Positions 11,367-31,651 of a DNA stretch of 64,000 nucleotides are shown here, one piece after another. The position numbers and the translations under genes are program-made. Positions within the stretch are counted from its first letter, which is position 1. The number at the start of each line of letters is the position of its first letter. The notes below the pieces were generated by a model. The model saw only the letters and a list, made by a program, of their open reading frames with translations. It was not told the DNA's origin and searched no databases. Origin of the DNA: Methanolobus tindarius DSM 2278 (GTDB taxonomy: Archaea; Halobacteriota; Methanosarcinia; Methanosarcinales; Methanosarcinaceae); NCBI RefSeq assembly GCF_000504205.1, contig NZ_AZAJ01000001.1, positions 372,001-436,000 of the forward strand, in the 5' to 3' direction.

Positions 11367-13052
11367 TCACATTGGGTATTTAGACTTCCAGTATGAAACA
11401 ATAAGCATTATCTCATCCTGAGATATCCTGTGATCAGTATCAGGAATAACATAACCGGATTTCCAGTAAGAAATCGCAGTCATCACCTCATTCTGAGAAA
11501 TAAGATTTCCTGACTCAGAATCAGGATCATTCCATGGATTCCAGTCAACACTAATACAATCCTCAACTGTTCTTGTATGTATGAAAACAGAATTTCCTGC
11601 CGTTAATGAAACATTGTAACTTCCGGATTTATTATAGGTATGCACCGGGTCTTTAATACCATAATCTTCAATTCCGTCACCATCCACATCCCATGACCAT
11701 GAAGTAGCATCTGAAGAAGTATCCGTGAACTGCACAGTTAAAGGAAAATCTCCGTAAGTAACATTTACTTCAAAATCCGCAAACACATGTTGCTCTTTAA
11801 CACTTTGACTATTGGCAAGCCCAAACAGGTAGCCACCATCATTTCCAAAGAAAAGCCATCCGTCAGAAATAACGACTCCCTGCAGGATATAATTATTCAT
11901 CCCATTTGATGGCAGATAGTTCCATTGTTCCATAGCTTCAGTATTACCCGGATAGTCTTTTAGACAATAGACAGTTCCATCTGCACAATTAGTTGTAAAA
12001 TAAATATATACCTCACCGTCACCGTCATCATACGCCCTTGAAATTGCAGGAGATGCCTTAACCCCGGCATTTGTTTCAAAATTCCATATCTCACTCAGGT
12101 CAGATTCATCCAGACAATAAAGTTTTCCCTCTGTCCAGCCGCCACAACCAACATAGACCCTGCCATTAAAAAACGAAGGAGTTGAAGTACATGCACCATC
12201 CAATTGAGCATAATTACTATCATACACATTGAAAGAACCAGTCTGATCAAAACCTATAGAATAACAATAACCACCTTTCGAAGTTAAAAAAAGCTTTTCT
12301 GAATCAGAATCATAGCTCACAGAAGATTTGAACTCTCCTGCATCATCTATAGAGAACATCTCACTGACATTAACCTCATCTATTAAAGAACCGTCATCCT
12401 TGTCCAAGGAAGTAAGATAACCTTTGGAATCCACAAATATTACAAAGTCCTCTACAACAGCAGGACCTGCCCAGTAATATCCACCTCCTGATGCTGCATC
12501 CTTTGACCAGCATTCATCTCCTGTATCCGTATAACAATAGAAAGTTCCATCATTACCATATTTATCCAAACAGTCCCCAAAATATATACGATGAGAATCA
12601 TAAACTATTGGAGTATACAACCAGTTGCCAATTTGATCAGTTTCCCATATAAGCTCTCCATTCAAAGAATCAAGAGCATACACTTTACCGTTCTCTCTTG
12701 GAATGAACAAAGTACCATTACCATATGCAGGTGAACCCAACTGATAGCTAATTTGCTCAATAGTAGTGCTCCACACCACACTTCCACTGTTTTTTTGAAT
12801 TGCAGATACATTACCACCTGGAAACACCATGTATAATATGTCATCAACGACAACAGAAGGGCAATCAACAGCTTCACCTGAAAAAAGCCTGTTCCACGAC
12901 ATACTTGAGGGAGTTGTAATAGGTGCCCTATCACAAGTTAAACCACTATTACAACTATCTTTCTGGAACTCTGTCCAGTCAGAAGCAAATGAAATATCTG
13001 CCATTGTCAGAGATGCGATCAACAGACATGACAGAAATACAACTAACTTCAT
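11367..13052 (-). CDS. Secreted PQQ-like propeller with PKD domain and shared tail
   Basis: The ATG at 13052 is preferred (GGTGGC six bases upstream, then MKLVVFLSCLLIASLTMA); the ATG at 13064 overlaps that ribosome binding site. Of 561 residues: signal peptide (1-24), PQQ-like propeller (25-395, opening WTEFQKDSCNSGLT, last blade YILQGVVISDGWLFFGNDGG), PKD domain (about 410-495; SWSWDVDGDGIEDYG and VHTYNKSGSYNVSLT), then the tail (505-561): NPWNDPDSESG, EVMTAISYWKSGY, EIMLIVSYWKSKY. The tail DNA is very similar to that of the next gene upstream. PKD domains are common in archaeal surface-layer proteins. Only 48 bases separate its start from the stop of the upstream gene, so the two may be co-transcribed. 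Confidence 0.9.
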   Translation of the reverse strand: MKLVVFLSCLLIASLTMADISFASDWTEFQKDSCNSGLTCDRAPITTPSSMSWNRLFSGEAVDCPSVVVDDILYMVFPGGNVSAIQKNSGSVVWSTTIEQISYQLGSPAYGNGTLFIPRENGKVYALDSLNGELIWETDQIGNWLYTPIVYDSHRIYFGDCLDKYGNDGTFYCYTDTGDECWSKDAASGGGYYWAGPAVVEDFVIFVDSKGYLTSLDKDDGSLIDEVNVSEMFSIDDAGEFKSSVSYDSDSEKLFLTSKGGYCYSIGFDQTGSFNVYDSNYAQLDGACTSTPSFFNGRVYVGCGGWTEGKLYCLDESDLSEIWNFETNAGVKASPAISRAYDDGDGEVYIYFTTNCADGTVYCLKDYPGNTEAMEQWNYLPSNGMNNYILQGVVISDGWLFFGNDGGYLFGLANSQSVKEQHVFADFEVNVTYGDFPLTVQFTDTSSDATSWSWDVDGDGIEDYGIKDPVHTYNKSGSYNVSLTAGNSVFIHTRTVEDCISVDWNPWNDPDSESGNLISQNEVMTAISYWKSGYVIPDTDHRISQDEIMLIVSYWKSKYPM

Positions 13053-13099
13053 ACAAGCCACCATTTTTCACAATATTTTTCATTACGCTCTGCTTAAAA

Positions 13100-15979
13100 T
13101 TACATTGAATAATTACACTTCCAGTTGGAAATGATAAGCATGATCTCATCCTGTGATATACTATGACCAGTCTCAGGAATGACATAATTAGATTTCCAGT
13201 AGGAAACAGCAATCATAACCTCATCCTGAGAAATATAACTTCCCCGATCTGAATCAGGATCATTCCACGGATTCCAGTCAGCTACTGTAATAAAACCTAC
13301 TTTTGACTCCATATCATATCCACCATGATTGCTTACATTAAGACTTACAGTATAATTTTCCTCTTCTGAATAAACATGGACAGGATTCTGTTCTGTAGAC
13401 AATGAAGTACCATCACCAAAGTCCCATTCCCATGAATCCGGGTTGTTGGTTGAAATATCAGAGAACTGTACAGTCAGACTTATGTTACCTGAAGTTACGT
13501 TTGCAGTAAAATCACATTCCGGCACAGGGATAACAGTTGCAACCCATGGAATATAGTCTACATTATCATTTACTGCATTTCCAACACCAGATGGATTGGT
13601 AGTTTCATGGTAAGGACCTGAATCATCACCCCACCAGTTGTAGGTAGCATTAATCTCTTCCAGTGCATGGTTCACAACACCACCGTATGCTGAACCATCT
13701 GTACCACTATATGTCTGGACGTTATCGGTTATGTTCGCTCCGGTGATCACTACGTTTATAGGCCCTGCATTGTTCTTATCAGGTTCACCAATACGTATAC
13801 CTCGTTCGTTGAATGAATAGTTACCACCATTGATCTGCACACCATCAAGAACTGCATCATTAGGTGAAATATAACTGCCATCATCTCTTGCCTTGATCAT
13901 AATTCCTGCACCTTCATTATATCCAAGACCATTGTTAGTAACAGTCAGGTTATTGAACACAAGGTTGGCATAGTTACCTGCCTTCAGATTGATATCAAAA
14001 CCACCATTCCATATCTGGTTCCAGAAATCGCTCTTACCGTTATTATCAACAAGAACATTATTGAAAGTTGAATCTGACAGCTTTTCAACATAGATACCTT
14101 TATAATCATTTTCACTGAAACTGCTATCATCTACAGTGACAAACTGCACATTACTGGTTTCGTTTATGTCAACGGTTTTAGCAAAGTACCATCCATAATC
14201 ACAGTTATCAAATGTGGAATCCTTCACTACAAAATAACTAAGGCTTGCATCAGTTGCAACCTTAAGGCCTATCTCATTCTCAACTGTGTGAGTGGTTGCA
14301 CCAACCACATTAACATTGTCAAACTCAATATAAGAAACACTGTCATTATTGTGTACCTCAAAACCGTAAACACCGTCAGGTACTACCCTTATGTTTTTTA
14401 TTAAGACAGTATCTTCTTCAGATGCTCCTGAAGCTGATAATTTGACAATTCTTTCATCCACATTCTTTTGCAATATGGAATCCACAAGCGGGTCATCTCC
14501 GCTTCCGCTACCAACTAAAGATACCTTCCTATTGACATCAATATTCTCGCTGTAAGTACCAGGCAACAGATAAATGGTGTCAACAGGGTCTGCAACTTCT
14601 ATGGCATCCTGAATGCTTCCGTAAGGAGTAACATAGTATGTCATTGGTGTTGTATCAAATTCAGCTCCAAGCCATGGAGAATACACTGCATTGTCAGTGA
14701 CATTATCCCCGGTTCCGACTGAATTGGTAGTTTCATGATAAGGGCCGGTAGCATCTCCCCACCAGTTAAGTGCTGCATTAACTTCCGTAATATTAACATC
14801 GACATACAGACCGGAATCACCATTTCCAGCGATGTTATTATTGTGAATCCCTACATTGACCGGATCAGGAATATCATATTCAGGATACCATACCTCATAA
14901 TCATATACACTTATTCCATCGTAGAGATTATTCAGAATATCATTGTTTTCAATATCAATAGTGTCCACACCATTGGCAATATCAATACCATATTCATTGT
15001 TCTCTACAAGATTGTTAGTAACCTTAATGTCTGAACATGTGTTTTCCCATGGAGAGCCGTATAATGCTACAGGAAAATCAGTCACACTGATAGCAACTTC
15101 ATTATCATGGACATAATTGGCATCAACTGTCACATTGCTTGTATCAACAACCATAATAGCAGTTCCTGACCAGTCTGTTCCCGGCCATCCGCAATGTGAT
15201 ACATTGTTACCCTGAATAAGTCCACTTGCAGCGTAACCAAATTGTATACCATTTGGTGCCCATGTAATATTGTCACCATTATACGGGCCGATAACAGTGT
15301 TGCCTATTACTTCATTATCACCGGAGTAAAGTCCGATACCTCCACGGGCAAACTGATCTATCAGATTATCCTGGATAGTAATGTTCATGGAACCATACCC
15401 AAGAATACCAAAAGTTTCCTTTCCATCTACCAGAATATTGACAAAATTGTTATCGTGGATAGAAGAAAGTATTTCACTATTATCCCGATTAACGTTCCTG
15501 CATATTACACTGCTCCACCTCTGTGATGGTGCAAAATTATTTGCATCAATAGTAAAACCGGACATTTCAACAGTAATGCACTCTGAACCATATACCGTAT
15601 CATTAGAACTTGAATATGTTCCACCCAAAAGTCCTACTACATATTCAAATGTCTTCGAAGACTCAGCAATAGTTATTATTTCAGGAGACTGCGGACATTT
15701 TATCGTAGCACCTTCAGGTGCTTGCAGTTTGACGCTTTTATTAACAGTAATACTTTCTTCATATATGCCTGGCATCACAGAAATTGTATCACCCGGCAAT
15801 GCATCATCTATTGCATCCTGTATCGTAGGATATACAACAATAGTACTTGCTACAGAAACACCACCTGAATTCTCTGCATAATTACAATCTACTACTAAAG
15901 TAGATGCTTCAGCAAATCCAATACACATAAAAATGATAGATAGAGTAAATACTACCCAAATAACTTTCCCAATTTTCAT
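13100..15979 (-). CDS. Secreted double beta-helix protein with PKD domain and shared tail
   Basis: Start at the ATG at 15979, with GGTGG upstream and a signal peptide following; an ATG at 16027 lacks these. Of 959 residues: signal peptide (1-27), first NosD-type beta-helix (about 40-440, introduced by PTIQDAIDDALPGDTI and closed by LNWWGDATGPYH), second beta-helix (445-805, introduced by GSIQDAIEVADPVDTIYLLP and closed by YNWWGDDSGPYH), PKD domain (820-898; WEWDFGDGTS), tail (900-959; NPWNDPDSDRG then EVMIAVSYWKSNY and EIMLIISNWKCNY). The two helices look like an internal duplication. Likely a fibrous extracellular protein; carbohydrate processing is possible for this fold but not shown. Confidence 0.9.
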   Translation of the reverse strand: MKIGKVIWVVFTLSIIFMCIGFAEASTLVVDCNYAENSGGVSVASTIVVYPTIQDAIDDALPGDTISVMPGIYEESITVNKSVKLQAPEGATIKCPQSPEIITIAESSKTFEYVVGLLGGTYSSSNDTVYGSECITVEMSGFTIDANNFAPSQRWSSVICRNVNRDNSEILSSIHDNNFVNILVDGKETFGILGYGSMNITIQDNLIDQFARGGIGLYSGDNEVIGNTVIGPYNGDNITWAPNGIQFGYAASGLIQGNNVSHCGWPGTDWSGTAIMVVDTSNVTVDANYVHDNEVAISVTDFPVALYGSPWENTCSDIKVTNNLVENNEYGIDIANGVDTIDIENNDILNNLYDGISVYDYEVWYPEYDIPDPVNVGIHNNNIAGNGDSGLYVDVNITEVNAALNWWGDATGPYHETTNSVGTGDNVTDNAVYSPWLGAEFDTTPMTYYVTPYGSIQDAIEVADPVDTIYLLPGTYSENIDVNRKVSLVGSGSGDDPLVDSILQKNVDERIVKLSASGASEEDTVLIKNIRVVPDGVYGFEVHNNDSVSYIEFDNVNVVGATTHTVENEIGLKVATDASLSYFVVKDSTFDNCDYGWYFAKTVDINETSNVQFVTVDDSSFSENDYKGIYVEKLSDSTFNNVLVDNNGKSDFWNQIWNGGFDINLKAGNYANLVFNNLTVTNNGLGYNEGAGIMIKARDDGSYISPNDAVLDGVQINGGNYSFNERGIRIGEPDKNNAGPINVVITGANITDNVQTYSGTDGSAYGGVVNHALEEINATYNWWGDDSGPYHETTNPSGVGNAVNDNVDYIPWVATVIPVPECDFTANVTSGNISLTVQFSDISTNNPDSWEWDFGDGTSLSTEQNPVHVYSEEENYTVSLNVSNHGGYDMESKVGFITVADWNPWNDPDSDRGSYISQDEVMIAVSYWKSNYVIPETGHSISQDEIMLIISNWKCNYSM

Positions 15980-16139
15980 AAAACCACCATCTAAAATTAA
16001 GTTTGTAAAATAAATTTCATTTTTCAAGTGGGTTTAACAGAACATCTTATTTAAACATGGAAAAGTCAATAAGATATGTTATATGTAGAGCTTATAAAAT
16101 GAGATTCAACACTTCTAAATCTGAATCCAAAATAAAACT

Positions 16140-18608
16140 CTAGACACTGCATATCGCAAATGAGGAAAAACCAGGTGTATCAGATTCAAAGATAAAATGT
16201 TCATCAGTTTCTTCAACCATTTCAGTAGGCAGATTTTGCCACATGTCATCTGCAAATCTGAAAAGATTTATAGAAGAAATTTCTATTTCATTTTCTTCTA
16301 TCCATGGACGTTTTACCTTAAAACCTATCAAAGGAGCATCTAATGTCAGCGGATCAACTCCTTCTGCAACAATCCAGATATTCAGATGCTTATATACGAT
16401 TCCAGGCGGATCACTTTTCACAAGAAGTGAACGGTTCCTCAGTATTTCTACCTTAACTTCTACAATATCAGAACAATCTTTTGTTTTTAAGCGAATATAT
16501 TCTACAGGATTTTCTTCAGCATCAAAATAATAAGAAGTAAAGCCATCCGGAGAGATTTCACATGAAAGTGTATCCTTAAAAATAACATTTTCATATTTAT
16601 TCTTCCTGAAAGAAAGGAAGCCTTTTCTTTCCCCTATATAAATTCCAGTACCTGCTAATATTAAAAACAGACAAAATACTAATATCCAAATGCTAATACT
16701 TGATGATGAAGCATTGGTTGGAACTAAATCAATAGTATCAGAATCATTGGATGAAGGAATTTCATCTTCTGCTGTTGAACGTAATGGAACCACTGCAGTG
16801 CCAGATGATGATTCTTTTTTGATACCTGTAATAACAAATGGTGAAAATCCAGGTGTTTCCGATTCAAAATAAAGATACCTTTCGTCCTCTTTCACTTTTT
16901 GTGTTTCGAGCTCTTTCCACTTATTATCATTGTAACGGTAAAGGGAAATTAATGATGACTGGATATCATTATCTGATACCCAGGATTTTTCAACCTTAAA
17001 GGAAATTACTGCATTTTCAATGTTATCTGCTGTTGCGAATCCTGTGTCACCAACCCAGATATTCATATACTTATACACCTCGCCAGGAGGTGCTTCTGAT
17101 ACCAGGGTGGAAATTCCTTTAAGGATTTCAATTGTAGTGCTTACAACCCCGGAATTTTTCAAAGCAATGAAACTAATAGATTTTATAGGATTATCATCTG
17201 AGTTAAAAGAAAAAGTCGTAACTTTTTTAGCCAGTACATTCTGGCTTTTGGATACTTTATCCAGGATGTTATCGTAATCTTCTCCAAAATAACCTCCTCC
17301 GCTGACATATCTTCCACTTGAAGAACTGCTACTGGCACTATCTGAGGATGACACCGAAGTAACATTCCATATCCATTCTTTTTGTGCAGTTCCATTCTCG
17401 TTTTCAGCAAAGATTGTAAGATTGTATAATCCGTTTGCTGCTGAAGAACAATAGTAGGATGCATTCATAGAACTATAGTTTGTCTGCACAATCACATCAT
17501 CAAGAATCCATGTGATATTTGCGATCTCATCAGTAGTAATTTCAAATAACCTTGAAGCACCAGTTTGATCTGTAATATAAGAACTTGATGGAGATATCAA
17601 AGAAATTATGATTCGGGGATAAGCAATGATATAATCTATTTTCTTCTCAGTATCATTTCCATAATTGTTTCCGGCCTCAAGAGAAACAGTATAACATCCA
17701 GCTTCAGTGTATGTGTGTACAACATTCCTGTCTGTTGAGCTGGTTCCATCACCAAAATTCCATTTCCATGATGTGGCATTCAAAGACTGGTCTGTGAACA
17801 TTACTGTTAAAGGAATTTTTCCATTTGTCACATTAGTTGTGAAATTCACAACCGGAAAAACATCGTTAGCTTCTTTCTTAATTGTAATCATTATGGTTTC
17901 AGAATCCGTAGAATAACCATCTGAAACTAAAAATGAAATTTCATATTTGCCAGCTTCAATTCCGGTTGTGTTCCATTCAAAGACATTCCCATAAAGTGTT
18001 CCAAATTCGGCAGTTGTTGAATATGTTAATTTGTCATTGTCTGCATCAGAAGCATGAAGAATAATCTTTACTATATCAGAACTATTTACACTTATATCTT
18101 CTATATTTTCAAGAACCGGGGCATTATTTTCTTTCATTTCTGCCCAGAATATTAGTTTTCCTTCCATTGAACCAATGCCAATGAATTCTTCTGGTACGTT
18201 TAATTGCACGCCGGATTCAACATAATCATCCTTTGATATTTCTTTTCCATAACTAACCCAGGAAGCATTATTAATTTCCAATCCTTCCACATAAAGGTCT
18301 TTTGCAACGTCAATAACTTCAGAAGTAACATAAGTCTTTGAACTTCCTTTATTGAATATTGTAAGCTTATGCACCTCACTGGACATGCCAGCAGATAATT
18401 TTCCAAAATCAATTGTATCCGGTGTAATTATTATGGATATTGAAGGACTGATTTTTGTAGAAAGAGATACAGCCGTTGCTTCTGAATAGGTTTCTATTTT
18501 AGTAACAACAGTTGAATTCTGAACTTGTTCTGAAGCATTTACAGGAAATGTAAATAAGAATACCAGGGAAAACAAAAAAACTAAAAGTAATAATTTGCTT
18601 TCCTGCAT
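16140..18608 (-). CDS. Membrane protein with PKD and two PGF-pre-PGF domains flanking a transmembrane helix
   Basis: 822 residues, ATG at 18608, GGTGA ten bases upstream. Order: signal peptide (1-25), beta-sandwich regions (30-240, the second cadherin-like: DADNDKLTYSTTAEFGTLYG), PKD (243-330; WKWNFGDGTSS), Ig-like domain (335-415), Ser-rich linker, PGF-pre-PGF domain (441-594, ending ESETPGFSPFVITG), transmembrane helix (about 636-658), a basic stretch (ERKGFLSFRKNKYE), then a second, degenerate PGF-pre-PGF-like domain (660-822, ending ESDTPGFSSFAICSV). PGF-pre-PGF is a known archaeal domain usually found just before a PGF-CTERM tail. The positive-inside rule would place the second copy in the cytoplasm, which is odd. 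The stop codon is TAG. It lies 41 bases downstream of the 404-residue gene and may be co-transcribed with it. Confidence 0.85.
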   Translation of the reverse strand: MQESKLLLLVFLFSLVFLFTFPVNASEQVQNSTVVTKIETYSEATAVSLSTKISPSISIIITPDTIDFGKLSAGMSSEVHKLTIFNKGSSKTYVTSEVIDVAKDLYVEGLEINNASWVSYGKEISKDDYVESGVQLNVPEEFIGIGSMEGKLIFWAEMKENNAPVLENIEDISVNSSDIVKIILHASDADNDKLTYSTTAEFGTLYGNVFEWNTTGIEAGKYEISFLVSDGYSTDSETIMITIKKEANDVFPVVNFTTNVTNGKIPLTVMFTDQSLNATSWKWNFGDGTSSTDRNVVHTYTEAGCYTVSLEAGNNYGNDTEKKIDYIIAYPRIIISLISPSSSYITDQTGASRLFEITTDEIANITWILDDVIVQTNYSSMNASYYCSSAANGLYNLTIFAENENGTAQKEWIWNVTSVSSSDSASSSSSSGRYVSGGGYFGEDYDNILDKVSKSQNVLAKKVTTFSFNSDDNPIKSISFIALKNSGVVSTTIEILKGISTLVSEAPPGEVYKYMNIWVGDTGFATADNIENAVISFKVEKSWVSDNDIQSSLISLYRYNDNKWKELETQKVKEDERYLYFESETPGFSPFVITGIKKESSSGTAVVPLRSTAEDEIPSSNDSDTIDLVPTNASSSSISIWILVFCLFLILAGTGIYIGERKGFLSFRKNKYENVIFKDTLSCEISPDGFTSYYFDAEENPVEYIRLKTKDCSDIVEVKVEILRNRSLLVKSDPPGIVYKHLNIWIVAEGVDPLTLDAPLIGFKVKRPWIEENEIEISSINLFRFADDMWQNLPTEMVEETDEHFIFESDTPGFSSFAICSV

Positions 18609-18640: not shown

Positions 18641-18664
18641 AAAGGTAGATTATTTTCTACCTTT
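18641..18664 (-). terminator. Hairpin overlapping the stop codon of the PGF-CTERM gene
   Basis: Perfect 9-bp arms AAAGGTAGA / TCTACCTTT with a six-base loop. The stop codon of the gene ending at 18650 sits in the loop and only a short T run follows on the minus strand, so this may attenuate rather than end transcription into the gene starting at 18608. Confidence 0.45.
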
Positions 18665-19864
18665 CATTGTAGCAAATATACCAGCAATAATTACTCCGGC
18701 AATACTTGCTAAAACTCCAAATCCAGGGGAACTTTGTGTTGATTCCACAGGAATTGTTGATTCTTCTTCAATATCTTCAACTGTGGATTCAAGTTCCTCT
18801 ACATCTTCTGCTGCAGATGAAGAAACAGACATCTTTTCAGCACTAAAAGGAGCAGCAATGGTAAATGGTGAGAAACCCGGTGTGTTAGATTCAAAGTGAA
18901 CACTTGTATCATCTTCACTCAGAACACTTGTGTCAAGTTCATTCCATGCATCATCTGAATATCTATAAAGAATAATATCGTCAGATGAGACTCCATTCTC
19001 TTCCATCCATTCTTTCTTAACACTGAATCCTATGACAGGATCCTCAATGTTATCAGATGTTGCAAAACCAACTTTGCCTACCCAGATATTCATATTCTGA
19101 TAAACAATTCCTGGTGCGTCAGAATCTGCAAATGTTGACCGATCATTAAGAACTTCAATTGTAGTGGAAATCTTGCCGGAGTTTTTAAGGCCGGTAAACT
19201 GTACATAGTTTATTGCATTTTCATCAGCTGAGAATTCATATTTAATGAGGCTTCCTTTGTTGATGAATACACTTTCTACTTCCTTTTTCAGAATATTTTC
19301 ATACTCTTCACCGGAGGTTCCACCACCGCCACCTCCTCCACCACTGGAGGATGAGGAAGTACTTGAAGAAGACGAGGATGAAGAATCATCAGTAGATGTC
19401 GAAGATGATAAAACTTCTATTTTTTGATCTCCTATTGTAGTTGATGTAATTCTGTCGCCATTATTGCTATTGAGTCCGGAAATAATTCCATAGACAGAAT
19501 AGGAACCGGCTGATGCTGTATCGGGAACCTCAACATAATATGTAATACTCATTTGTTCGCCTTCATCTACTTTTTTGGTCCAGAGCCATGTGGCTAACGA
19601 ATCATCTTTACTATAGGTACTGTTACCATAATTTCCGCTACTTATTGCCCATCCCTCAGGTAGGTTTTCTTCAATTTTAGGTGCATCAATCTCTTCTTGG
19701 AAATATACATAAATTGTTACCGTGAAAGTATCACCTGCATCGACAGACAATTCAGATATGCTTCTTGTGGCTGTAATTTCATCAGAACCTAAAGCATTGG
19801 TTCCAAATAAAATTAAAATCAGCAATGAAAACGCAAAACCATATGTTATCTTTTTAGTTATCAT
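18650..19864 (-). CDS. PGF-CTERM surface protein with PGF-pre-PGF domain
   Basis: 404 residues, ATG at 19864. Signal peptide (1-26); N-terminal module (27-140; ATRSISELSVDAGDTFTV, SAGSYSVYGIISG) related to the modules in the genes at 1088 and 6985; a low-complexity Ser then Gly linker (about 155-190); PGF-pre-PGF domain (190-345, ending NTPGFSPFTIAA); and a C-terminal PGF-CTERM signal (SPGFGVLASIAGVIIAG then MKGRK). By family knowledge, PGF-CTERM tails are processed and lipid-anchored by archaeosortase A, so this should be a surface-anchored protein. It is the first gene of the minus-strand cluster, divergent from the secretion ATPase at 20052. Strong assignment for anchoring, unknown for the rest. 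Confidence 0.9.
   Translation of the reverse strand: MITKKITYGFAFSLLILILFGTNALGSDEITATRSISELSVDAGDTFTVTIYVYFQEEIDAPKIEENLPEGWAISSGNYGNSTYSKDDSLATWLWTKKVDEGEQMSITYYVEVPDTASAGSYSVYGIISGLNSNNGDRITSTTIGDQKIEVLSSSTSTDDSSSSSSSSTSSSSSGGGGGGGGTSGEEYENILKKEVESVFINKGSLIKYEFSADENAINYVQFTGLKNSGKISTTIEVLNDRSTFADSDAPGIVYQNMNIWVGKVGFATSDNIEDPVIGFSVKKEWMEENGVSSDDIILYRYSDDAWNELDTSVLSEDDTSVHFESNTPGFSPFTIAAPFSAEKMSVSSSAAEDVEELESTVEDIEEESTIPVESTQSSPGFGVLASIAGVIIAGIFATMKGRK
19319..19400. repeat. Low-complexity Ser/Gly linker coding repeat
   Basis: Trinucleotide-like purine/pyrimidine-biased DNA that encodes consecutive serines followed by eight glycines, in the linker before the PGF-pre-PGF domain. The 1397-frame giant gene has a similar Ser/Thr/Gly linker at about 42226-42296. 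Such tracts change length easily by replication slippage. Confidence 0.6.
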
Positions 19865-20051: not shown

Positions 20052-21635
20052 ATGCAAAAGATATCTGATAAGATCAGAAAACTATCAAGCATCAGAAATA
20101 AGCATAAAAAACCTTCAGATACAGTTGCCCAAGAAACAGATGAATTAGAGCCAATTGTATCATTTGAACCTGATATCGATACTGAAGAGATAGAACGTTA
20201 TTGGGTTGATGAGCCTTATGTATTTATTTCTATCTTAAAATATGATAATGATCTGTTTTATCATGTTGTTGAACCGGAACTTAATGAAATAGAAAGATCA
20301 GTACTTGATGAAGTTCTGTTCACAATAGGTGACGTACTCACCCTAAAACAAGTAAAAGATCTGGATAAAATTGATAAGGACAACAAATACAAGCTCCTTA
20401 AAGAAAAAATAAAAGAATTACTTTCTGACTATTCACAGAGATCAGGAAATTCTTTTGAGAAAATATTCTACTATATAAAGAGAGATTTCATTGATTTTGG
20501 AAAGATAGGTTCCATCATGAAGGATCCTACTATCGAAGATGCATGGTGCAATGGAGTGGGGATTCCTGTTTATATTTTTCATTCAACCTATGGGAATCTT
20601 ATAACTAACATTACATTCGAGAGTGATGAAGATATAGCTGCCTTTGTTATGAGAGTCGCACACCAGAGCTCCAGACATATTTCTAAATCCTCTCCGATAC
20701 TTGACACAGTAATGCAGGACGGATCCAGGATTAATATCACATATGGACATGAAATCAGTCCAAAAGGAAGCTCTTTCAGTATAAGAAAGCAAAAAAAAGT
20801 CCCTTTAACTCCTCTTGACCTGATTGCCTGGAATACTTTTTCCTCAGATATTATGGCTTATTTCTGGCTTTGTATGGAAAATGGGAAAAATATACTGATA
20901 TGCGGTGGTACGGCAAGTGGAAAAACATCCACCATGAATGCAGTCTGCATGTTTATTCCTTTAAACGTCAGAGTTGTAACTTTAGAGGATACGCGGGAAA
21001 TACAGTTGCCACATGAGAACTGGATACCAATGGTTACCCGTGGAGGAATCTCACAGGATAATGTTGGAAACATTGATCTGGAAGATCTTCTGCGGGCCTC
21101 CCTGAGACAAAGACCTGACTATTTACTGGTTGGGGAAGTCAGGGGTAGCGAGTCACAAATATTATTCCAGGCGATGAATGCAGGCCATGCTACATGTTCA
21201 ACTTTCCATGCAGGTTCTCCTACAGAAGTAATAAACCGATTTACAAATCCACCAATTAATGTTCCTGCAGCCATGTTTACAGCATTAGATATAATATGTA
21301 TGCAGTCTACGACGTTTGAAAGTGGTACTGAAATAAGGAAAGTATCCAAAATAGCTGAAGTTACAGGTGTTTCAGAATCAATTGACATTCAGGATGTATT
21401 CATATGGAGCAAACTAAATGATCATTTTGAATATCACCAGTCCAAAGTTCTTGATGAAATAAAATCAAGAAGAGGATGGAATGAAGTAGATTTAGAAAAT
21501 AATCTCAATAAAAGAAAATATTTTCTGGAAACTTTAATAGCAAAAAATATCCGGGGTTACAATGAAATCATATTTTGGATAAATTATTTCAATAGTTCTC
21601 CTGAAAAAAGCATACAGGAATTAAATCACCAGTAA
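20052..21635 (+). CDS. Type II/IV secretion system ATPase (TadA/FlaI-like), stand-alone
   Basis: 527 residues. Family: archaeal VirB11/GspE-like hexameric ATPases that power pilus, archaellum or secretion machines at the inner face of the membrane. Visible motifs: Walker A ICGGTASGKTS (about 282-292), the Asp/Glu box EDTREIQLPHENW after it, RASLRQRPDYLLVGEVRG as the Walker B/arginine region, and a His-box-like GHATCSTFHAG. The N-terminal phrase IERYWVDEPYVFISIL matches the ATPase at 29960 (VERYWVNEPYSFISIL), so the two are paralogues. No membrane partner (TadC/FlaJ) lies next to it; its neighbours are surface-protein genes and an ArsR regulator. The start has only a distant AAGGA, so it is the least certain part. 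Confidence 0.9.
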   Translation: MQKISDKIRKLSSIRNKHKKPSDTVAQETDELEPIVSFEPDIDTEEIERYWVDEPYVFISILKYDNDLFYHVVEPELNEIERSVLDEVLFTIGDVLTLKQVKDLDKIDKDNKYKLLKEKIKELLSDYSQRSGNSFEKIFYYIKRDFIDFGKIGSIMKDPTIEDAWCNGVGIPVYIFHSTYGNLITNITFESDEDIAAFVMRVAHQSSRHISKSSPILDTVMQDGSRINITYGHEISPKGSSFSIRKQKKVPLTPLDLIAWNTFSSDIMAYFWLCMENGKNILICGGTASGKTSTMNAVCMFIPLNVRVVTLEDTREIQLPHENWIPMVTRGGISQDNVGNIDLEDLLRASLRQRPDYLLVGEVRGSESQILFQAMNAGHATCSTFHAGSPTEVINRFTNPPINVPAAMFTALDIICMQSTTFESGTEIRKVSKIAEVTGVSESIDIQDVFIWSKLNDHFEYHQSKVLDEIKSRRGWNEVDLENNLNKRKYFLETLIAKNIRGYNEIIFWINYFNSSPEKSIQELNHQ

Positions 21636-21707: not shown

Positions 21708-22265
21708 ATGACAGATAATACTAACGAAGAATTGAAAGAAGATGAGAAATCTAATTTTTTAAAATTATTCTATGCACTTGATAGCAAAACAAGATTAGCT
21801 ATTATTCAAAGTTTATTTGAAAATGAGAAACATATTTCAGAAATTGCCCGTGAGCAAAAAATCTCCGTGCCTGTTGCAGCAAAGCATGTTAACATCCTGG
21901 AAGATGCAAATCTTGTTAAAAGAAATATTTATGGAAAAACTCATGTTCTGGAATTAAACAATAAGGATGTGGCCAAATCACTTGATATTCTGGCACCAAC
22001 TAAGACTGTAGAGGTCAAAAAAGGAACAAATCTTCTGGATGCTCTGAAGGAAGTTGCCATTATCGAAACAAAAAAATTACGAGGAAAAGACCATGTAATC
22101 TCAACTAATGGAGATGAGGGGTTTTTTATCTATGAACTGGATGGACAGTTTTGTGATCAAACAGTTCAGAATTGCATATTCAGAAAAGATGTAACTGTTG
22201 TCTGGAAAAAACTGGAACCTGTGGCAAAATTATGCTTAAATATCAAAGTGAGAGATGATGACTAA
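21708..22265 (+). CDS. ArsR-type regulator with DUF4430-like C-terminal domain
   Basis: 185 residues, probably leaderless. Residues 15-95 are a winged helix-turn-helix: KLFYALDSKTRLAIIQSLF, then HISEIAREQKISVPVAAKHV as the DNA-reading helices, then NLVKRNIYGKTHVLEL as the wing. Residues 105-180 (GTNLLDALKEVAII, GDEGFFIYELDGQF, KDVTVVWKKLEPV) resemble DUF4430, the small beta-grasp-like domain that occurs in secreted proteins and in transcobalamin's beta-domain; this second call is my pattern reading, not a search result. If right, the domain would be a ligand sensor. It follows the secretion ATPase by 72 bases and probably regulates the surface or ATPase genes nearby (inference). Confidence 0.8.
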   Translation: MTDNTNEELKEDEKSNFLKLFYALDSKTRLAIIQSLFENEKHISEIAREQKISVPVAAKHVNILEDANLVKRNIYGKTHVLELNNKDVAKSLDILAPTKTVEVKKGTNLLDALKEVAIIETKKLRGKDHVISTNGDEGFFIYELDGQFCDQTVQNCIFRKDVTVVWKKLEPVAKLCLNIKVRDDD

Positions 22266-25103: not shown

Positions 25104-26033
25104 TCAGGACAAAAGATTCAGCCTCGCATCAAAAAATGTCTTTGTAACATTTATCATGATATCTTCACCGGAACTTCCTTCAAGGAAAAATACAACTGCA
25201 GTGTCGTTGGAATTTACAGAATATTCTGCCGAATCAATTCCTGCATCATCTGCTAATGTTTCAAAATAACTTTCCCAGGAAGTGGGATATGATGTCTGAA
25301 TAGTCATTGTCATGTCCGTAAACAGTACACCATCCCAGTAAAGAGAATCAGAACCATTGGTTCTGAAGTTAACCTCTTCGATAGAATTACTGCTGATAGC
25401 TTTTCTGGGACCGTTTAGATCAATTACATTAAATTCCACAGTTATATTACTGGAATTATGTGTTTTTCTTATATCCATCTGAGGACCAAGACGCATTAAT
25501 GAAAAGCTATCCTGGGCCAGAATGAGAGCTCCGCTCTCATAGACATATTTCTGGTTTATAAAATAATGATTATCAGAGATGTAACTTACAGTTCCAAGAT
25601 CAAGTAGTAAAGGATCACTATTGTAATCTATTCCCGGAGTGGTTCCCACAATATTAATTCCAAAATCATCATCGTTTATAGTAAGTCTTCCACTGGACTT
25701 TTCAGGGCTGAACATGGGCAGTGAAGCTCCACCCATCTTTATGGGAACACTTACAGAAAGGCTTGTGGAAGGTTCGGTTCTTGCATAACCTGAAAGGATA
25801 TCAAGTTCATTTTTCATCCCTGCCATATCATAAAAGACATCGTCCATATGTGACTGTTCCGCAGAGGTTTTCCATTCAGGAATATACTGCACATAAACAA
25901 GAGTTATCACAGATACCACTATACCAAAAAGAAGGACAGCAGAGATTGCAGCAGAAATAGCTCTTTCATTGCCAAGGAAATCTCTTAAATCCTTATGCTT
26001 CCTCTGGCAGCAACCGCTTTTTATTTTTATCAT
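25104..26033 (-). CDS. Type IV pilin-like protein, second pilin of the operon
   Basis: 309 residues. After a basic N-terminus, the stretch NERAISAAISAVLLFGIVV followed by a hydrophobic run (to about residue 50) is a class III (pilin) signal of the archaeal type, expected to be cut by the prepilin peptidase before assembly. The remainder is beta-rich with no recognised domain. The start ATG overlaps the stop codon of the upstream pilin gene (ATGA), so translation is coupled. It is the last gene of the ATPase-TadC-pilin-pilin operon. Role: probably a minor pilin or pseudopilin of the pilus built by this operon. Confidence 0.8.
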   Translation of the reverse strand: MIKIKSGCCQRKHKDLRDFLGNERAISAAISAVLLFGIVVSVITLVYVQYIPEWKTSAEQSHMDDVFYDMAGMKNELDILSGYARTEPSTSLSVSVPIKMGGASLPMFSPEKSSGRLTINDDDFGINIVGTTPGIDYNSDPLLLDLGTVSYISDNHYFINQKYVYESGALILAQDSFSLMRLGPQMDIRKTHNSSNITVEFNVIDLNGPRKAISSNSIEEVNFRTNGSDSLYWDGVLFTDMTMTIQTSYPTSWESYFETLADDAGIDSAEYSVNSNDTAVVFFLEGSSGEDIMINVTKTFFDARLNLLS

Positions 26034-27991
26034 GGATTTGTCCTCGCATAGTAATCTGCCATATCTGACTCATCCAGTGTTACATTGTATATCTCCACCT
26101 CATCGAGATAACCACGGAAATAATAGTCATTGCTGCCATAGTTCTGCCTGCCTATCCACAAATCATAATTATTTGGCACAAGTGAATAACCATTCATAGA
26201 AAGTGACTCTACAAATGTAGCATCTTTGTAGAAGCTCACATCATTTCCATCAGCAACAACACCTATCTGATACCAGGTATTTTTCTGAAGATTCATTCCT
26301 GTAGTTTCAACATAATGATAACCTGAACTTGTCCATTCAAACCAGAGTTCTCCACTACTGACAAAAACGTCAAAGTTGTCCTGATCATTTGCTCCTTTAC
26401 CGATAATACAATAGTCATTATTATTATTTGCAAGTCTTAACCAGAATATCAGACTCACATTCTGGTCAAAATCAAGGGAATTGTCATCTGAAACGACAAG
26501 ATAATCACCATTACCGTCAAAATACATCGCTGAATTATTTATTGCTGTGCCGACAGACCATTTTGCATCTTGGATAGAAGCATCATTGCCATTAACACTG
26601 TCATAAGCAACTGAACCTGAACCTTCATCGAATTTCCATCTTGAAACAGGAATCACAGATGATGTTCCTGGTTCTTCTGTCTCTTCCGGAGGGAAAAGCT
26701 CGTAATAACCACTACAGGTAATATAGGTGTTAGAAGGATTGAAATTGATCTCAGTGCTTCCTGAACCATAGAAACCGATGTTTGAAATATTGATACCGGA
26801 ATTATTGGTTTGCCAGTTAATGATTGTGTCACTATCCACTTTAAGATAGGTCTGGCTGCTATAAGATGGAAGTTCATATTTTAGAGTTGAATAATAATTC
26901 GAGATTGGATAAACATAGATATTTGTGACCAGACCTGTGTCCTGCAAGACATCGTTTATGTACAGATTAACGTTCAGGTTGAAATTTGATATGGAATCAC
27001 TACCACCCATGGAAATATGTCCTGAAGTCTGGTCATTTACAACTTCAAGTTTGACTTCATCAGATAGAGCCAGGTTGTACCTGGTACCGTCTATATCTAC
27101 ATACCGGTAATTACCATCATTTGTAAAGCTGATATAGCCGCCGTCCTTAATTACGCCGCCTATTGAGTTTTTATTCAGGATTATACTGTTTGCAAATATA
27201 CCCGATGGAGCCACAACAGTTACTCCCTGGGAAACACTGTCTGTATTTCCATCATCATCGGTAACAGTAAGGCTTATTGTATAGGTTCCTGCGGAAGAGT
27301 ACTGGTGTGAAGGATCCTGAACTGTAGAAGTTCCTCCGTCACCGAAATTCCATGACCATGCAACAACTGTTCCATCTGAATCTGTAGACTGATCTGTAAA
27401 GGTAACCGTTTGAAGCACCCCGGGACTTGCAGGTGAATATATGAAATCAGCAACCGGATCATATTGTGATGGTGTTACATTGCCACCTGATCCAGACCCT
27501 GAACCCATTTCGAGTTCTTCTCCTAGAAGAGAACCACTTTCAATAACAAGATTGGAATCCGTTTGCAGTAAAATCATGCCAACGTAATCATCCTCATTGA
27601 TGGTCGTGTTCCAGAGAAGATCCGTATCAATTACAATGGTTTGTCCAAGGTGCCAGCTATTGCTCCCTATTAGCTGCTTCAGTTGTGACGAGGATATATC
27701 CCTGCGTGTGCCATTCAGATTAAGGACTAATTCCACTTTATCAAGGTCAATATTCTCACCGCCTGAATGCCTCAGATAGACAGTATCTGAACTGACATCC
27801 ACCCAGCCATCTACATCTGCATGCACAGCATCTTCTGATTCAAGATAGGAGAATACAAACACAGCTATTACAGAAAATGCAAGCACAGCTATAGCTGTCA
27901 AAAGTATCTCACCGATTATTTCGGAAACTGCATTTTCATCATGGAATATTTCCATGATTCCAGATTTTTCATTTTTAAGCTGTGTTCCCAT
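26030..27991 (-). CDS. Type IV pilin with PKD and LamG-like domains
   Basis: Start set at the ATG at 27991, which has a strong GAGGTGA five bases upstream; an ATG at 28033 lies inside the previous gene. Of 653 residues, 14-50 hold the archaeal pilin signature (NAVSEIIGEILLTAIAVLAF, as in the DUF1628/Pilin_N family); about 50-160 is the pilin head; a PKD domain follows (180-265; WSWNFGDGGTS), then a region of beta-sandwich character, and residues 445-653 form a LamG/concanavalin-like domain (VSRWKFDEGSGSVAYDSVNG start, WYQIGVVADGNDVSFY, RGYLDEVEIYNVTL end). LamG domains often bind glycans. A pilin of this size is unusual and suggests an adhesive tip or decorated fibre (inference). Confidence 0.87.
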   Translation of the reverse strand: MGTQLKNEKSGIMEIFHDENAVSEIIGEILLTAIAVLAFSVIAVFVFSYLESEDAVHADVDGWVDVSSDTVYLRHSGGENIDLDKVELVLNLNGTRRDISSSQLKQLIGSNSWHLGQTIVIDTDLLWNTTINEDDYVGMILLQTDSNLVIESGSLLGEELEMGSGSGSGGNVTPSQYDPVADFIYSPASPGVLQTVTFTDQSTDSDGTVVAWSWNFGDGGTSTVQDPSHQYSSAGTYTISLTVTDDDGNTDSVSQGVTVVAPSGIFANSIILNKNSIGGVIKDGGYISFTNDGNYRYVDIDGTRYNLALSDEVKLEVVNDQTSGHISMGGSDSISNFNLNVNLYINDVLQDTGLVTNIYVYPISNYYSTLKYELPSYSSQTYLKVDSDTIINWQTNNSGINISNIGFYGSGSTEINFNPSNTYITCSGYYELFPPEETEEPGTSSVIPVSRWKFDEGSGSVAYDSVNGNDASIQDAKWSVGTAINNSAMYFDGNGDYLVVSDDNSLDFDQNVSLIFWLRLANNNNDYCIIGKGANDQDNFDVFVSSGELWFEWTSSGYHYVETTGMNLQKNTWYQIGVVADGNDVSFYKDATFVESLSMNGYSLVPNNYDLWIGRQNYGSNDYYFRGYLDEVEIYNVTLDESDMADYYARTNP

Positions 27992-28001
27992 GTATTTCAC
28001 C

Positions 28002-29948
28002 TCAGATGAAGAATGCAAAGAGTATGTAAGCAATTGACATCATCATGATGGAATGCTTATATCCTGAATGAATGGTTCCGCCTCCCATTTTCCCTGCTAC
28101 CAGACCTGAACAGAAACCCTGTATCATAGCTGCATGGAAAAATATCAGGGTATATTTGTCAAGGTCAAAAGCAGTCGACAAGCTTAGACCTGAAATTGCA
28201 CCTTCTGTGGATGCAGGCATTGCCGGCAGGAAATAAGCTGCCAGTATGTAAACTATGAACAGAAAAACCATGAAAGCTATGTAAATAATAAAGATGTAAA
28301 CAAACATCTCTGCATTACGTTCTTTTTTAAGCTGCCTCTGGATGTCAGCATCATGAGCTGCAATTGCCAGCACGCTTTTTACGTCACCTGTAGCCTCATT
28401 GGCTTTAATTATGAGATTAATGATACGTCTGGTCATTTCCGTACGTATCCTGAACTCAAATTTTTTCAGTGCATCATCAAGCTTTGCTCCCCATGAAATA
28501 TCATTTACAAGACGTTTTACTTCTGAATGAAGGATACCTATCTTAAGCTGCATACTCATGACAATAGCATCGACTAGAAGAATTCCAGCCTCATTTATGC
28601 TTGCCAGATTATTGAGAAAATCAGGAATGTGATTTTCAATCTGATTTACGCGATAGGTTCGTAGTTCATCAAAAATTATGAAAGGAACAAGCAGAATAAT
28701 AAGTGCTATGAATATCTGATCGTCGATTATGCTTACAGTCAGAACATTGAAGCTATTTATATAGAGAATGTTTGCAACATTTATGTACTCATTAACGGTA
28801 TAGAATAGGTACACTAGTGAAACAGGTACAGTAATAAATAAAACATGAGATGGATTATTTGTGAAAAGAGCCAGTGGATGTGTAACCTTATCAATGAACT
28901 TTACAATTCTGGCATAATTGCGCATATTTTTCCTTTTGACTTCTTCATCTGATTCTCCGGCTTTTAATGGAATATGGGAAAAAATATCCAGTTTTTTTTC
29001 CACAACATAGAAATCAGGAATCTTCGGATTATCATTTGTCAGTGAATTAAGCAGAAGAAGGAAAATAACGGTTCCTATCGGGATAATCAGGTAAACTATC
29101 AGATTTAGAATACTAGCTGAGCTTGAACTTACAAGTCCCAGTACTACAAGAATAGTTATCAAAAACAGCGGGCCTGCAACAAACGCTGAGATATATACTT
29201 CTGCAAGCACACTAAGAGTTTCAAAGAATATTTTCTGCTCTTTTGTAGCGGTGAGTCGGTACTGGTCATTCTTTGCCTTGAGATATGAGCTTACATCACC
29301 ACCGCTGGTCACAATGGAAGTCATTCCATCCAGAAAATCCTTAAATTTCTTGGAAGGGGTTCTCTGTCCAGCACGGTCAAAAGCCTGAAGAAGATCGGTA
29401 CCATAGTATTCCATGTCCTTTACGATATAACCCACTTCTTCTGCCGCAGCACCATAAATGTAATAGTTCTGTGCCAGTGACTTCATGATATCAATAAGAT
29501 TCATTCCACCACCATGGCTCATTGCATAGAGATATGCAGTAGTGTGTGGAAGAGACTGGTTAATGAGTGTTCCCCTTACATTTGCTTGTACTTCAGGTAT
29601 TGACATGAAAATGTAATATGTCAATGAGGAGGCTATTACAGCAAAAAGAACAGCCAGCCCGATACTTAGCAATAAATGAAAATTCGACCAGATCCAGGGA
29701 ATTTCAGTACCAACACCTAACATATAGGGCCTGACGTTTCCAAGAAGGTAATATCCGGCAAGCAGTCCGACAAAACCTGCAAACAATGCCATTATAAACG
29801 AAAAGAAATAAGTCTGGGCAATGTATTGTTCTATCAGCATACCCAGCCCTGCTTTACGAATTAAAAGGCGCTGGTCCTCATATCGATGGATGTGTCTCCT
29901 CACATATTTTCCGAATATAAGGTGAGCTGCTGAGTCGATGATATCCAT
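28002..29948 (-). CDS. TadC/FlaJ-like type II secretion F-domain membrane protein
   Basis: 648 residues with two repeats of the T2SSF layout, each a soluble helical bundle followed by several membrane helices (hydrophobic runs near 50-75, 90-115, 250-300, 370-440, 550-600 and 620-648). Family role: inner-membrane platform of type IV pili, archaella and Tad machines, turned by the partner ATPase. The phrase NQSLPHTTAYLYAMSHGG is typical of the archaeal double-F-domain version. It lies 11 bases after the ATPase gene and ends 10 bases before the pilin start, so operon membership is firm. Confidence 0.9.
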   Translation of the reverse strand: MDIIDSAAHLIFGKYVRRHIHRYEDQRLLIRKAGLGMLIEQYIAQTYFFSFIMALFAGFVGLLAGYYLLGNVRPYMLGVGTEIPWIWSNFHLLLSIGLAVLFAVIASSLTYYIFMSIPEVQANVRGTLINQSLPHTTAYLYAMSHGGGMNLIDIMKSLAQNYYIYGAAAEEVGYIVKDMEYYGTDLLQAFDRAGQRTPSKKFKDFLDGMTSIVTSGGDVSSYLKAKNDQYRLTATKEQKIFFETLSVLAEVYISAFVAGPLFLITILVVLGLVSSSSASILNLIVYLIIPIGTVIFLLLLNSLTNDNPKIPDFYVVEKKLDIFSHIPLKAGESDEEVKRKNMRNYARIVKFIDKVTHPLALFTNNPSHVLFITVPVSLVYLFYTVNEYINVANILYINSFNVLTVSIIDDQIFIALIILLVPFIIFDELRTYRVNQIENHIPDFLNNLASINEAGILLVDAIVMSMQLKIGILHSEVKRLVNDISWGAKLDDALKKFEFRIRTEMTRRIINLIIKANEATGDVKSVLAIAAHDADIQRQLKKERNAEMFVYIFIIYIAFMVFLFIVYILAAYFLPAMPASTEGAISGLSLSTAFDLDKYTLIFFHAAMIQGFCSGLVAGKMGGGTIHSGYKHSIMMMSIAYILFAFFI

Positions 29949-29959
29949 ACCAGATTCCC

Positions 29960-31651
29960 CTACATGTTCTGTTCTATCATTGTCTGAAATGTATCGGCTT
30001 CTATGGCTTCAATAACAGATTCAGGATTTGCATCATAAGCCTGTACTACCAGTGAAATCCTTACATAATCTCTCATGTTCTTCTCTCGGAGATAAGTAAG
30101 AATGCGGACTCTGTTATCCAGTTCAGTTGCAAGTTTATTCCTGTCCCAGCCTCTTGCAACCATAACCTTGTTCAGGGTGTACGAATCCCCAGTCTTAATG
30201 AAAGTGTCACTAATAGGGTCCCATCGGTAGAGTTCGTTTATGCGGATGTAACCGGTTTTGGCATCTATACCTGTAAATTCCACAAGACTCTGTGTTCTGC
30301 GAACCCTTTTATTATTCACAAATGTCTGCATCTGGATACTCAGGATATCAAGTGACTGAAGCATTACATGTGGAACATTAAGTGGTGGACTGTCAAGCCT
30401 GTTGACAACAGTCTGAACGTCACCTGCGTGCATTGTGGAATATGTTGCATGTCCCGTGGATATGGCCTGGAACAGTGTGAGAGCTTCCTCACCCCTGATT
30501 TCTCCTACAAGTATGTATTCCGGTCTCTGCCTGAGAGCTGAGCGCAGCAGGTCATACATGGATATTTCACCCAAACTGTTCACATTAAGTGGCTTGCGTG
30601 TAACTCCTGCTATCCAGTTATCATGATGGAGTGTAAGTTCCCTGGTATCTTCAATCGAGACTACCTTTGACAATGGAGGGATGAAGAGTGAAACTGCGTT
30701 AAGCAGGGATGTTTTTCCTGATGCGGTACCGCCTGCAAATATGGCGCAATCTCCATTTTCCATTGCAAGCCAGAAATAGGCCATCATTTCAATGTTACAG
30801 GTGTTATAATTCACAAGATCAATAGGAGTAATTGGATCCCCACGGAACTTCCTTATGGTAAAAGAACTTCCCCTTGTTGTGATTTCTTTTCCAAGGGTTG
30901 CCTGAAGACGTGAACCATCAGGAAGAGTTGCATCAACCATCGGTTCGCCAACAGAGATGTGCTTACCGCTTTTCTGGCAGAGCTTTATTACAAGCGAATT
31001 GAGTTCCTCTTCACTGAAAGCAATATTTGTCTTTATGTTGCGGTATTTATTATGATACATGAAAACCGGGACTTCTATCCCATCACATGAAATATCCTCT
31101 ATGCCCGGATCCAGCATCAGTGAGTTTATACGGTCGTGGCCAAGGAAATTACGTTTAAGATAGTAGAATATCTTGTAGGTTGAAGATATTTCCAGGCTCG
31201 CATGATACCTGTTAAAAAGGGCGAGTGCATTTTCCATCAGCACAGTTTCTTTATTTCTGTCTGTGCTGACACCACCAAGACTCAGAATATCCTGAAGATC
31301 GTCATACACCCTTTCAAGAATATCTTTTTCATATAAGGTCAGCGTTGGCTCGACCACGTGATAATAGTAGATGTTGCCCTTTTCCAGTATGCTGATGAAT
31401 GAATAAGGTTCGTTTACCCAGTAACGTTCAACCTCCTGGTATCCGTCAGGAATTTCAAATTCCACCAGCAGACCGTGTATTTCAGGATCATAATCAGGAA
31501 GTCTTGTACGTGGATGAATTATTGAATTAATTCCTGATTTGATATCAGTAACCAGAGTAGATAATCTGGAAGACTTTTTATCATCTATGGGGACTTCTTC
31601 GTTTTCAGTAAGAAGTTTTTCATCAATAATTAGATCCTGAGGTTCCATCAT
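29960..31651 (-). CDS. Type IV pilus/secretion ATPase (TadA/FlaI-like)
   Basis: 563 residues; the start is ATG at 31651 or the adjacent ATG at 31648. Walker A FAGGTASGKTS (about 300-310), EDTRELTLHHDNW, then SALRQRPEYILVGEIRGEEA and GHATYSTMHAG give a complete ATPase core. Same N-terminal layout as the stand-alone paralogue at 20052. First gene of the pilus operon; powers fibre assembly with the membrane protein that follows. No prepilin peptidase gene is present in the window, so maturation must rely on one elsewhere. Confidence 0.92.
   Translation of the reverse strand: MMEPQDLIIDEKLLTENEEVPIDDKKSSRLSTLVTDIKSGINSIIHPRTRLPDYDPEIHGLLVEFEIPDGYQEVERYWVNEPYSFISILEKGNIYYYHVVEPTLTLYEKDILERVYDDLQDILSLGGVSTDRNKETVLMENALALFNRYHASLEISSTYKIFYYLKRNFLGHDRINSLMLDPGIEDISCDGIEVPVFMYHNKYRNIKTNIAFSEEELNSLVIKLCQKSGKHISVGEPMVDATLPDGSRLQATLGKEITTRGSSFTIRKFRGDPITPIDLVNYNTCNIEMMAYFWLAMENGDCAIFAGGTASGKTSLLNAVSLFIPPLSKVVSIEDTRELTLHHDNWIAGVTRKPLNVNSLGEISMYDLLRSALRQRPEYILVGEIRGEEALTLFQAISTGHATYSTMHAGDVQTVVNRLDSPPLNVPHVMLQSLDILSIQMQTFVNNKRVRRTQSLVEFTGIDAKTGYIRINELYRWDPISDTFIKTGDSYTLNKVMVARGWDRNKLATELDNRVRILTYLREKNMRDYVRISLVVQAYDANPESVIEAIEADTFQTMIEQNM

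Follow-up and report, generated by a model that had tools for sequence, protein, structure and literature searches.

A Methanolobus surface protein with PGF-pre-PGF domains predicted on both sides of the membrane, encoded beside a divergent pilus-type ATPase

Domains of the ZU5/GAIN/FIIND superfamily are found on both faces of membranes: the ZU5 domains of CARD8, NLRP1, and PIDD are intracellular, while GAIN domains sit just outside a membrane helix. The ZU5 domain of UNC5b has also been described as intracellular (PMC3210808), and ZU5, GPS, and Nup98 were united in the account of Zhang and others 2012 (PMC3482391). The cleavage sites at the ZU5 end are given as SF/S in CARD8, where the site stands before a long strand, and as HF/S in PIDD, and the S295A exchange in CARD8 is reported to reduce cleavage only slightly (PMC3210808). 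Rat NLRP1 is described as cut between F968 and S969 (PMC8081665). For the PGF-pre-PGF domains of archaea, no function was found in the literature searched, and no precedent for the findings below was met there under PGF-pre-PGF, TIGR04213/IPR026453, or prokaryotic GAIN/ZU5.

The window, i.e., the whole stretch of 64,000 nucleotides from Methanolobus tindarius DSM 2278 that was analysed, lies in a genome with 21 PGF-pre-PGF (TIGR04213) matches. It encodes an 822-aa protein that TIGR04213 matches in two stretches, with 323.6 bits in all (cut-off 28); as single hits in the genome, copy 1 scores 197.5 bits and copy 2 scores 145.4 bits against the same cut-off (Table 1). The ectodomain contains Ig/PKD-like domains ahead of PGF-pre-PGF domain 1, and domain 2 forms the end of the protein (TPGFSSFAICSV) without a sorting tail. 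The span on which the initial annotation had commented, 16140-17290, corresponds to residues 440-822, and the protein continues three residues beyond the TPGFSSFAI quoted there. Judged by its sequence, domain 2 is a PGF-pre-PGF member in an unusual setting. A promoter and terminator scan gave no more matches than were obtained in shuffles.

Table 1. Features of the 822-aa protein and of the adjoining genes, in window positions.
Feature	Position	Strand	Basis or remark
822-aa double PGF-pre-PGF protein	16140..18608	(-)	ORF; TIGR04213 matched twice
Signal peptide, residues 1-26	18531..18608	(-)	Hydropathy 2.45 at 6-24; cleavage site inferred from VNA-SE
N-terminal ectodomain, residues 43-159	18132..18482	(-)	53-55% identity to C-terminus of secreted proteins of pilus loci L100 and L103
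PKD domain, residues 252-327	17628..17855	(-)	Pfam PF18911, E 2.4e-17
PGF-pre-PGF domain 1, residues 443-595, predicted outside; GFS 587-589	16824..17282	(-)	TIGR04213
Predicted transmembrane helix, residues 636-658, N-out/C-in	16635..16703	(-)	Hydropathy 2.56, charge of flanks, helix in poor full-length model
Basic juxtamembrane stretch GERKGFLSFRKN	16599..16634	(-)	Sequence
PGF-pre-PGF domain 2, residues 671-820, predicted cytoplasmic; GFS 813-815	16149..16598	(-)	TIGR04213, AF2, fold matches
404-aa partner gene	18650..19864	(-)	41 bp upstream of the 822-aa gene, same strand
FlaI/PilB3-type ATPase, divergent	20052..21635	(+)	Pfam T2SSE, E 4.3e-31; Walker A GGTASGKT, LLVGEVR
ArsR-type winged-helix (HTH) gene, downstream of the ATPase	21708..22265	(+)	Pfam HTH_5, E 5.4e-9

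A census of 81 different PGF-pre-PGF ORFs, many of them cut at the N-terminus, contained five with a domain after the helix and no tail, all of them the orthologues treated here. Among the other 76, 72 have an above-threshold helix following the last domain, in keeping with the earlier statement that the family normally lies outside, beside a C-terminal membrane anchor. In L007, L018, L050, and L083, the helix after the last domain falls under the threshold, and all but one of them have a hydrophobic stretch of lower score close to the end. A hydrophobic segment ahead of the PGF-pre-PGF domain occurs in L055, L057, L060, and L095; in three of them it lies no more than about 110 residues from the start of the frame and is probably a signal. 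L060 (Methanosarcina sp. KYL-1, 6985 onwards) has a marginal segment (1.69 at 896-914) followed by two tandem PGF-pre-PGF domains and then a C-terminal helix. The two-sided layout was clearly present in none of the 76. Two other family members, L009 and L049, extend beyond their helix into a cytoplasmic tail, which is charged and probably helical in the former and which we take to be TPR-like in the latter.

Full-length orthologues, with 61-79% identity over the alignment, were found in four further genomes and hence in five of the 27 Methanolobus genomes searched. The layout is kept in these four other genomes and is therefore not due to chance. A profile of the helix plus domain 2 was matched at full length by the same five genomes only among the matches listed from 237 genomes of the class, and again by these five only among those listed from 392 genomes of the phylum, although independently evolved cases outside the matches listed could escape such searches. 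In genome G082, the orthologue (L099, 8620-12669) is a fusion of about 1,350 residues in all, with an additional secreted part at its N-terminus that has a signal-like start of its own. Directly downstream of the orthologue in genome G039 stands an ORF (L096, 8253-9197) that is presumably an IS transposase.

With regard to topology, a 19-residue Kyte-Doolittle scan with a threshold of 1.6 gave just two segments in the 822-aa protein, at about residues 6-24 (the signal) and 638-656 (mean 2.56). The full-length AlphaFold model, which was built from three sequences, has a pLDDT of 37, and was used for its two helices only, contains helices longer than 13 residues at 3-17 and 636-662 alone. A further helix that would bring both domains outside, named in advance as a refutation, appears in neither analysis. 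Since the protein lacks any helix besides the signal and residues 636-658, domain 2 would most simply be cytoplasmic. The C-terminal flank of the helix, YIGERKGFLSFRKNKYENVI, carries five K/R and two D/E, as against no K/R and two D/E in the N-terminal flank, so that the description of two PGF-pre-PGF domains split by a helix and a basic stretch holds. The juxtamembrane GERKG is kept in four of the five orthologues and replaced by GVKRD in the fifth. In addition, a PGF-type cleavage motif ahead of the helix is absent from all five orthologues, so that, as far as the sequence goes, the other refutation named at the outset (a helix that is a cleaved signal) finds no support either, and TIGR04126 (PGF-CTERM) gave no match to the 822-aa protein at E up to 0.1. 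The genome encodes archaeosortase A, and a Ser/Gly-rich stretch precedes the helix.

Further signs of sidedness come from the same five orthologues and are hence not independent of each other: in every one of them the outer flank of the helix is free of K/R and the inner flank has 4 to 6, and the inner copies contain 3, 3, 2, 3, and 0 Cys residues versus none in any of the five first copies (mean 0.42 in the 76 other domains). A composition score was trained on this 64-kb window, with overlapping ranges for cytosolic and other training proteins. The inner copies of the five orthologues reach 0.004 to 0.044 on it, the outer copies -0.049 to -0.027; even the highest inner value stays under that of the lowest-scoring cytosolic training protein (0.053), which places the inner copies between the two classes, and 1 to 14 of the 76 other domains score as high as the inner copies. 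N-X-S/T sequons number 12 to 31 per orthologue in the part of the ectodomain that precedes domain 1; they are absent from domain 1 itself in every orthologue, and domain 2 has one (NRS) in three of five, so sequons fail to separate the two sides, and the count was dropped as an uninformative marker. Taken from the sequence, a bitopic protein with domain 2 in the cytoplasm is very probable. The cytoplasmic placement suggested by the initial annotation is the best computational topology. The inverted arrangement it also offered found no support: the flanks are positive-inside in all five orthologues, and there is no extra helix. A cleaved tail is held unlikely, the PGF motif before the helix being missing in all five.

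AlphaFold (AF2) models domain 2 as a beta sandwich with a pLDDT of 85.6 and a pTM of 0.81. In a VIA-align search with this model, 12 of the top 13 rows are ankyrin ZU5, GAIN, or FIIND chains at Z 7.2-9.1, such as ankyrin ZU5 4d8o (9.1), FIIND 7jn7 (8.2) and 7crw (8.1), and GAIN 4dlo (8.2); the first rank is held by 9fqr_Hn (Z 9.4), a chain not assigned to a family here. Unrelated rows reach Z 7.1 (a dextranase), close under the top values of 8-9, so the support for the fold is moderate. The best Foldseek matches are GAIN domains (4dlo_B, E 5.5e-3), with none at or below 0.001. In sequence searches, Pfam ZU5, GPS, and FIIND gave no match in 20 PGF-pre-PGF members at E up to 10, and Pfam as a whole returned nothing meaningful on the family; a PDB sequence search with the family profile gave chance-level matches, none of the ZU5/GAIN/FIIND kind at E up to 10.

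A profile of 20 PGF-pre-PGF rows matched five archaeal ZU5 rows weakly (probability 4.6%, E 0.0087). With 86 rows the comparison reached a probability of 53% and a score of 32.0, with the FS motifs in register, whereas none of 50 shuffles scored higher than 17.0 and the reversed profile gave 9.7. The archaeal ZU5 alignment comprises five of seven loci, L105 (unrelated low-complexity) and L110 (where the cut missed the domain) being left out. These five (L106-L109 and L111) encode proteins of about 910 residues from another family of the same class, and their Pfam ZU5 domains end in HFSPYAL or HFSPYSL, which may be a site of autoproteolysis. On the strength of the model and its fold matches, the PGF-pre-PGF domains are probably kin, at a distance, of the ZU5/GAIN/FIIND superfamily; given the lack of any match to Pfam ZU5, GPS, or FIIND, they are proposed as remote relatives and not as members of Pfam ZU5. 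The fold of domain 1 is carried over from domain 2 by sequence homology and is likewise a prediction. A superfamily that occurs on both membrane faces makes an inner PGF-pre-PGF copy no paradox.

The motif GFS is present in 82 of 86 PGF-pre-PGF domains, and FS in 84 of 86. In domain 2 it lies between the last two model strands (145-151 and 157-162), where ZU5 and FIIND domains have HFS or SFS; the activating His of HFS is replaced by Gly in the same number of domains as carry GFS (82 of 86), and the 20-row alignment contains no invariant His that could correspond to the conserved nearby His of rat NLRP1. Model residue 163 and chain residue 976 are the last positions matched to 7crw_A; provided that this end of the alignment is ungapped, model Ser156 would stand opposite S969. 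The PGF-pre-PGF domains perhaps cleave themselves, the Ser and Phe being present in the sequence and the activating His missing. Such cleavage might still occur without the His of HFS, given that CARD8, as described, is cut at SF/S and loses little cleavage in S295A (PMC3210808).

The 404-aa protein encoded upstream has a signal peptide, a DUF11-like region (Pfam, below cut-off), a PGF-pre-PGF domain, and a PGF-CTERM-like tail (TIGR04126 16.4 bits, under the cut-off of 24.5). Its gene adjoins the 822-aa gene in all five genomes, and the order HTH gene, ATPase gene, and then the divergent 404-aa and 822-aa genes is likewise kept in all of them; the locus in G082 has a further, shorter HTH-like ORF in between. 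The NCBIfam archaellum FlaI model scores the ATPase at 393.5 bits, under its cut-off of 550. The ATPase occurs at 73-100% identity in exactly the five of 27 genomes with an 822-aa orthologue (next best 61%), but the five genomes perhaps go back to one inherited event, in which case the co-occurrence may amount to a single observation.

No FlaJ-type or pilin gene stands beside the ATPase within the block in the loci read from the five genomes. Its paralogues (53-61% identity) adjoin FlaJ-type genes in all four loci read, and three of these contain several ORFs that, from an N-terminal motif, we take to be pilin-like. The secreted protein of two pilus loci (L100 and L103) resembles at its N-terminus the 404-aa protein (29-33%) and, as listed in Table 1, at its C-terminus the 822-aa protein. 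It seems that the block arose from a pilus locus that lost FlaJ and the pilins, kept the ATPase, and gained a membrane protein one of whose domains is cytosolic. A FlaJ-type protein encoded elsewhere in the window (28002-29948) could serve the ATPase. About 3 kb past the HTH gene, the window contains a second pilus-type cluster (25104-31651) with an accessory protein, a TafC-like ORF, a FlaJ-like ORF, and an ATPase, and a third such cluster (L100) lies just beyond the window edge. The neighbouring secreted proteins at 11367-13064 and 13100-16027 carry the C-terminal motif DPDS..ISQDEVM..VSYWK repeated twice, presumably a dockerin-type calcium-binding pair.

Built on the computed architecture, conservation, selection, and co-inheritance of the locus, the preferred reading is that of a bitopic surface protein with an inner docking domain, to which we assign a probability of about 0.5. 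The Ig/PKD-like modules and domain 1 would stand outside the cell, and the helix at 636-658 would act as a stop-transfer segment that stays in the membrane and not as an archaeosortase tail. On the cytoplasmic side, domain 2 would form a beta sandwich of the ZU5/GAIN-like type and, having diverged from the outer copies, would dock a cytosolic partner and tie the surface structure to it. The likeliest partner would be the divergent FlaI/PilB3-type ATPase, conserved alongside and without the FlaJ platform gene of its paralogues. The topology is the best-supported step and the partner the least: a docking role for domain 2 falls a little short of an even chance, and the ATPase as its partner is doubtful.

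The chief rival, itself unlikely, takes domain 2 as a passive anchor: folded inside the cell, it would act as a plug against processing or pulling out and would have no partner. No partner is proven, the helix lacks a preceding cleavage motif, and in a genome with archaeosortase A an escape from this enzyme may matter. Selection on the inner copy and the conservation of the locus together with the ATPase gene speak against a mere plug. In a tree of 86 domains (bootstrap not settled), the copies of domain 1 group in one supported clade and those of domain 2 in another, with 1.1 changes per column on the stem of the domain 2 clade. The dN/dS of domain 2 is 0.10-0.21 in the seven of ten pairs that could be computed, which indicates purifying selection about as strict as in ectodomain residues 40-250 (0.10-0.18 in six of ten pairs); domain 1 gave no value in seven of ten pairs, and domain 2 in three of ten. 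Its own clade, long stem, and low dN/dS indicate that domain 2 predates the separation of the five, has diverged, and has been maintained.

Still less probable is a transmembrane sensor, in which an outer ligand or strain alters domain 2 and signals to the cytosol, e.g., via the ATPase or the HTH gene. Domains of the same type on both faces and the adjoining ATPase and HTH genes in all five genomes are in line with it, but the TIGR and Pfam profiles detected no output domain in the protein, be it a kinase, a cyclase, a receiver, or another, and there is no sign of a state change. Signalling between surface and cytoplasm had been suggested in the initial annotation; a role in docking or as an adaptor has the better basis, given the neighbouring ATPase and the likely fold of the ZU5/GAIN type. 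It is improbable that archaeosortase or another membrane protease cuts the helix, or that the topology is reversed, with domain 2 released or outside: the otherwise extracellular family, the encoded archaeosortase A, the Ser/Gly-rich stretch, and the one sequon of domain 2 in three of five are set against the missing PGF motif, the positive charges inside, the lack of a further helix, and a domain 2 with more Cys (four of five) and a composition closer to that of cytosolic proteins than domain 1 has (five of five). A bolder extension of the docking reading, which we regard as a long shot, would make the PGF-pre-PGF domains the archaeal branch of ZU5/GAIN/FIIND and the 822-aa protein a transmembrane receptor with a domain of this type on either face: outside, close to the membrane, a GAIN-like, perhaps self-cleaving switch (F588/S589), and inside, a ZU5-like dock for a pilus-type ATPase that has become independent of its usual platform.

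Methanogen surfaces carry many PGF-pre-PGF domains, and the likely ZU5/GAIN-type fold offers a structural hypothesis for the family and makes its self-cleavage concretely testable. The inner copy is a natural experiment on what these domains bind, and it may connect the archaeal surface layer directly with a motor-type ATPase in the cytosol.

Compared with known systems, both copies of the 822-aa protein score far over the cut-off of the PGF-pre-PGF family (TIGR04213/IPR026453), whose members normally stand ahead of a C-terminal helix; copy 1 fits this arrangement, whereas copy 2 follows the helix. The best fold matches are to the ZU5/GAIN/FIIND (Nup98) domains of animals and bacteria, and GFS is placed like their HFS/SFS; the PGF-pre-PGF domains differ in having Gly for the His of HFS and in falling outside the Pfam ZU5, GPS, and FIIND profiles. 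Like substrates of the PGF-CTERM/archaeosortase A system, the 822-aa protein is predicted to be secreted and has a C-terminal part with a helix and basic residues, but it lacks the PGF motif and has a whole domain after the helix. With the archaeal type IV pilus and archaellum, the locus shares an ATPase that has the T2SSE domain and the Walker A and B-like motifs of the FlaI/PilB3 kind, and a pilus-locus secreted protein has modules of both surface proteins; where those systems have FlaJ and pilin genes, the block encodes a predicted bitopic surface protein.
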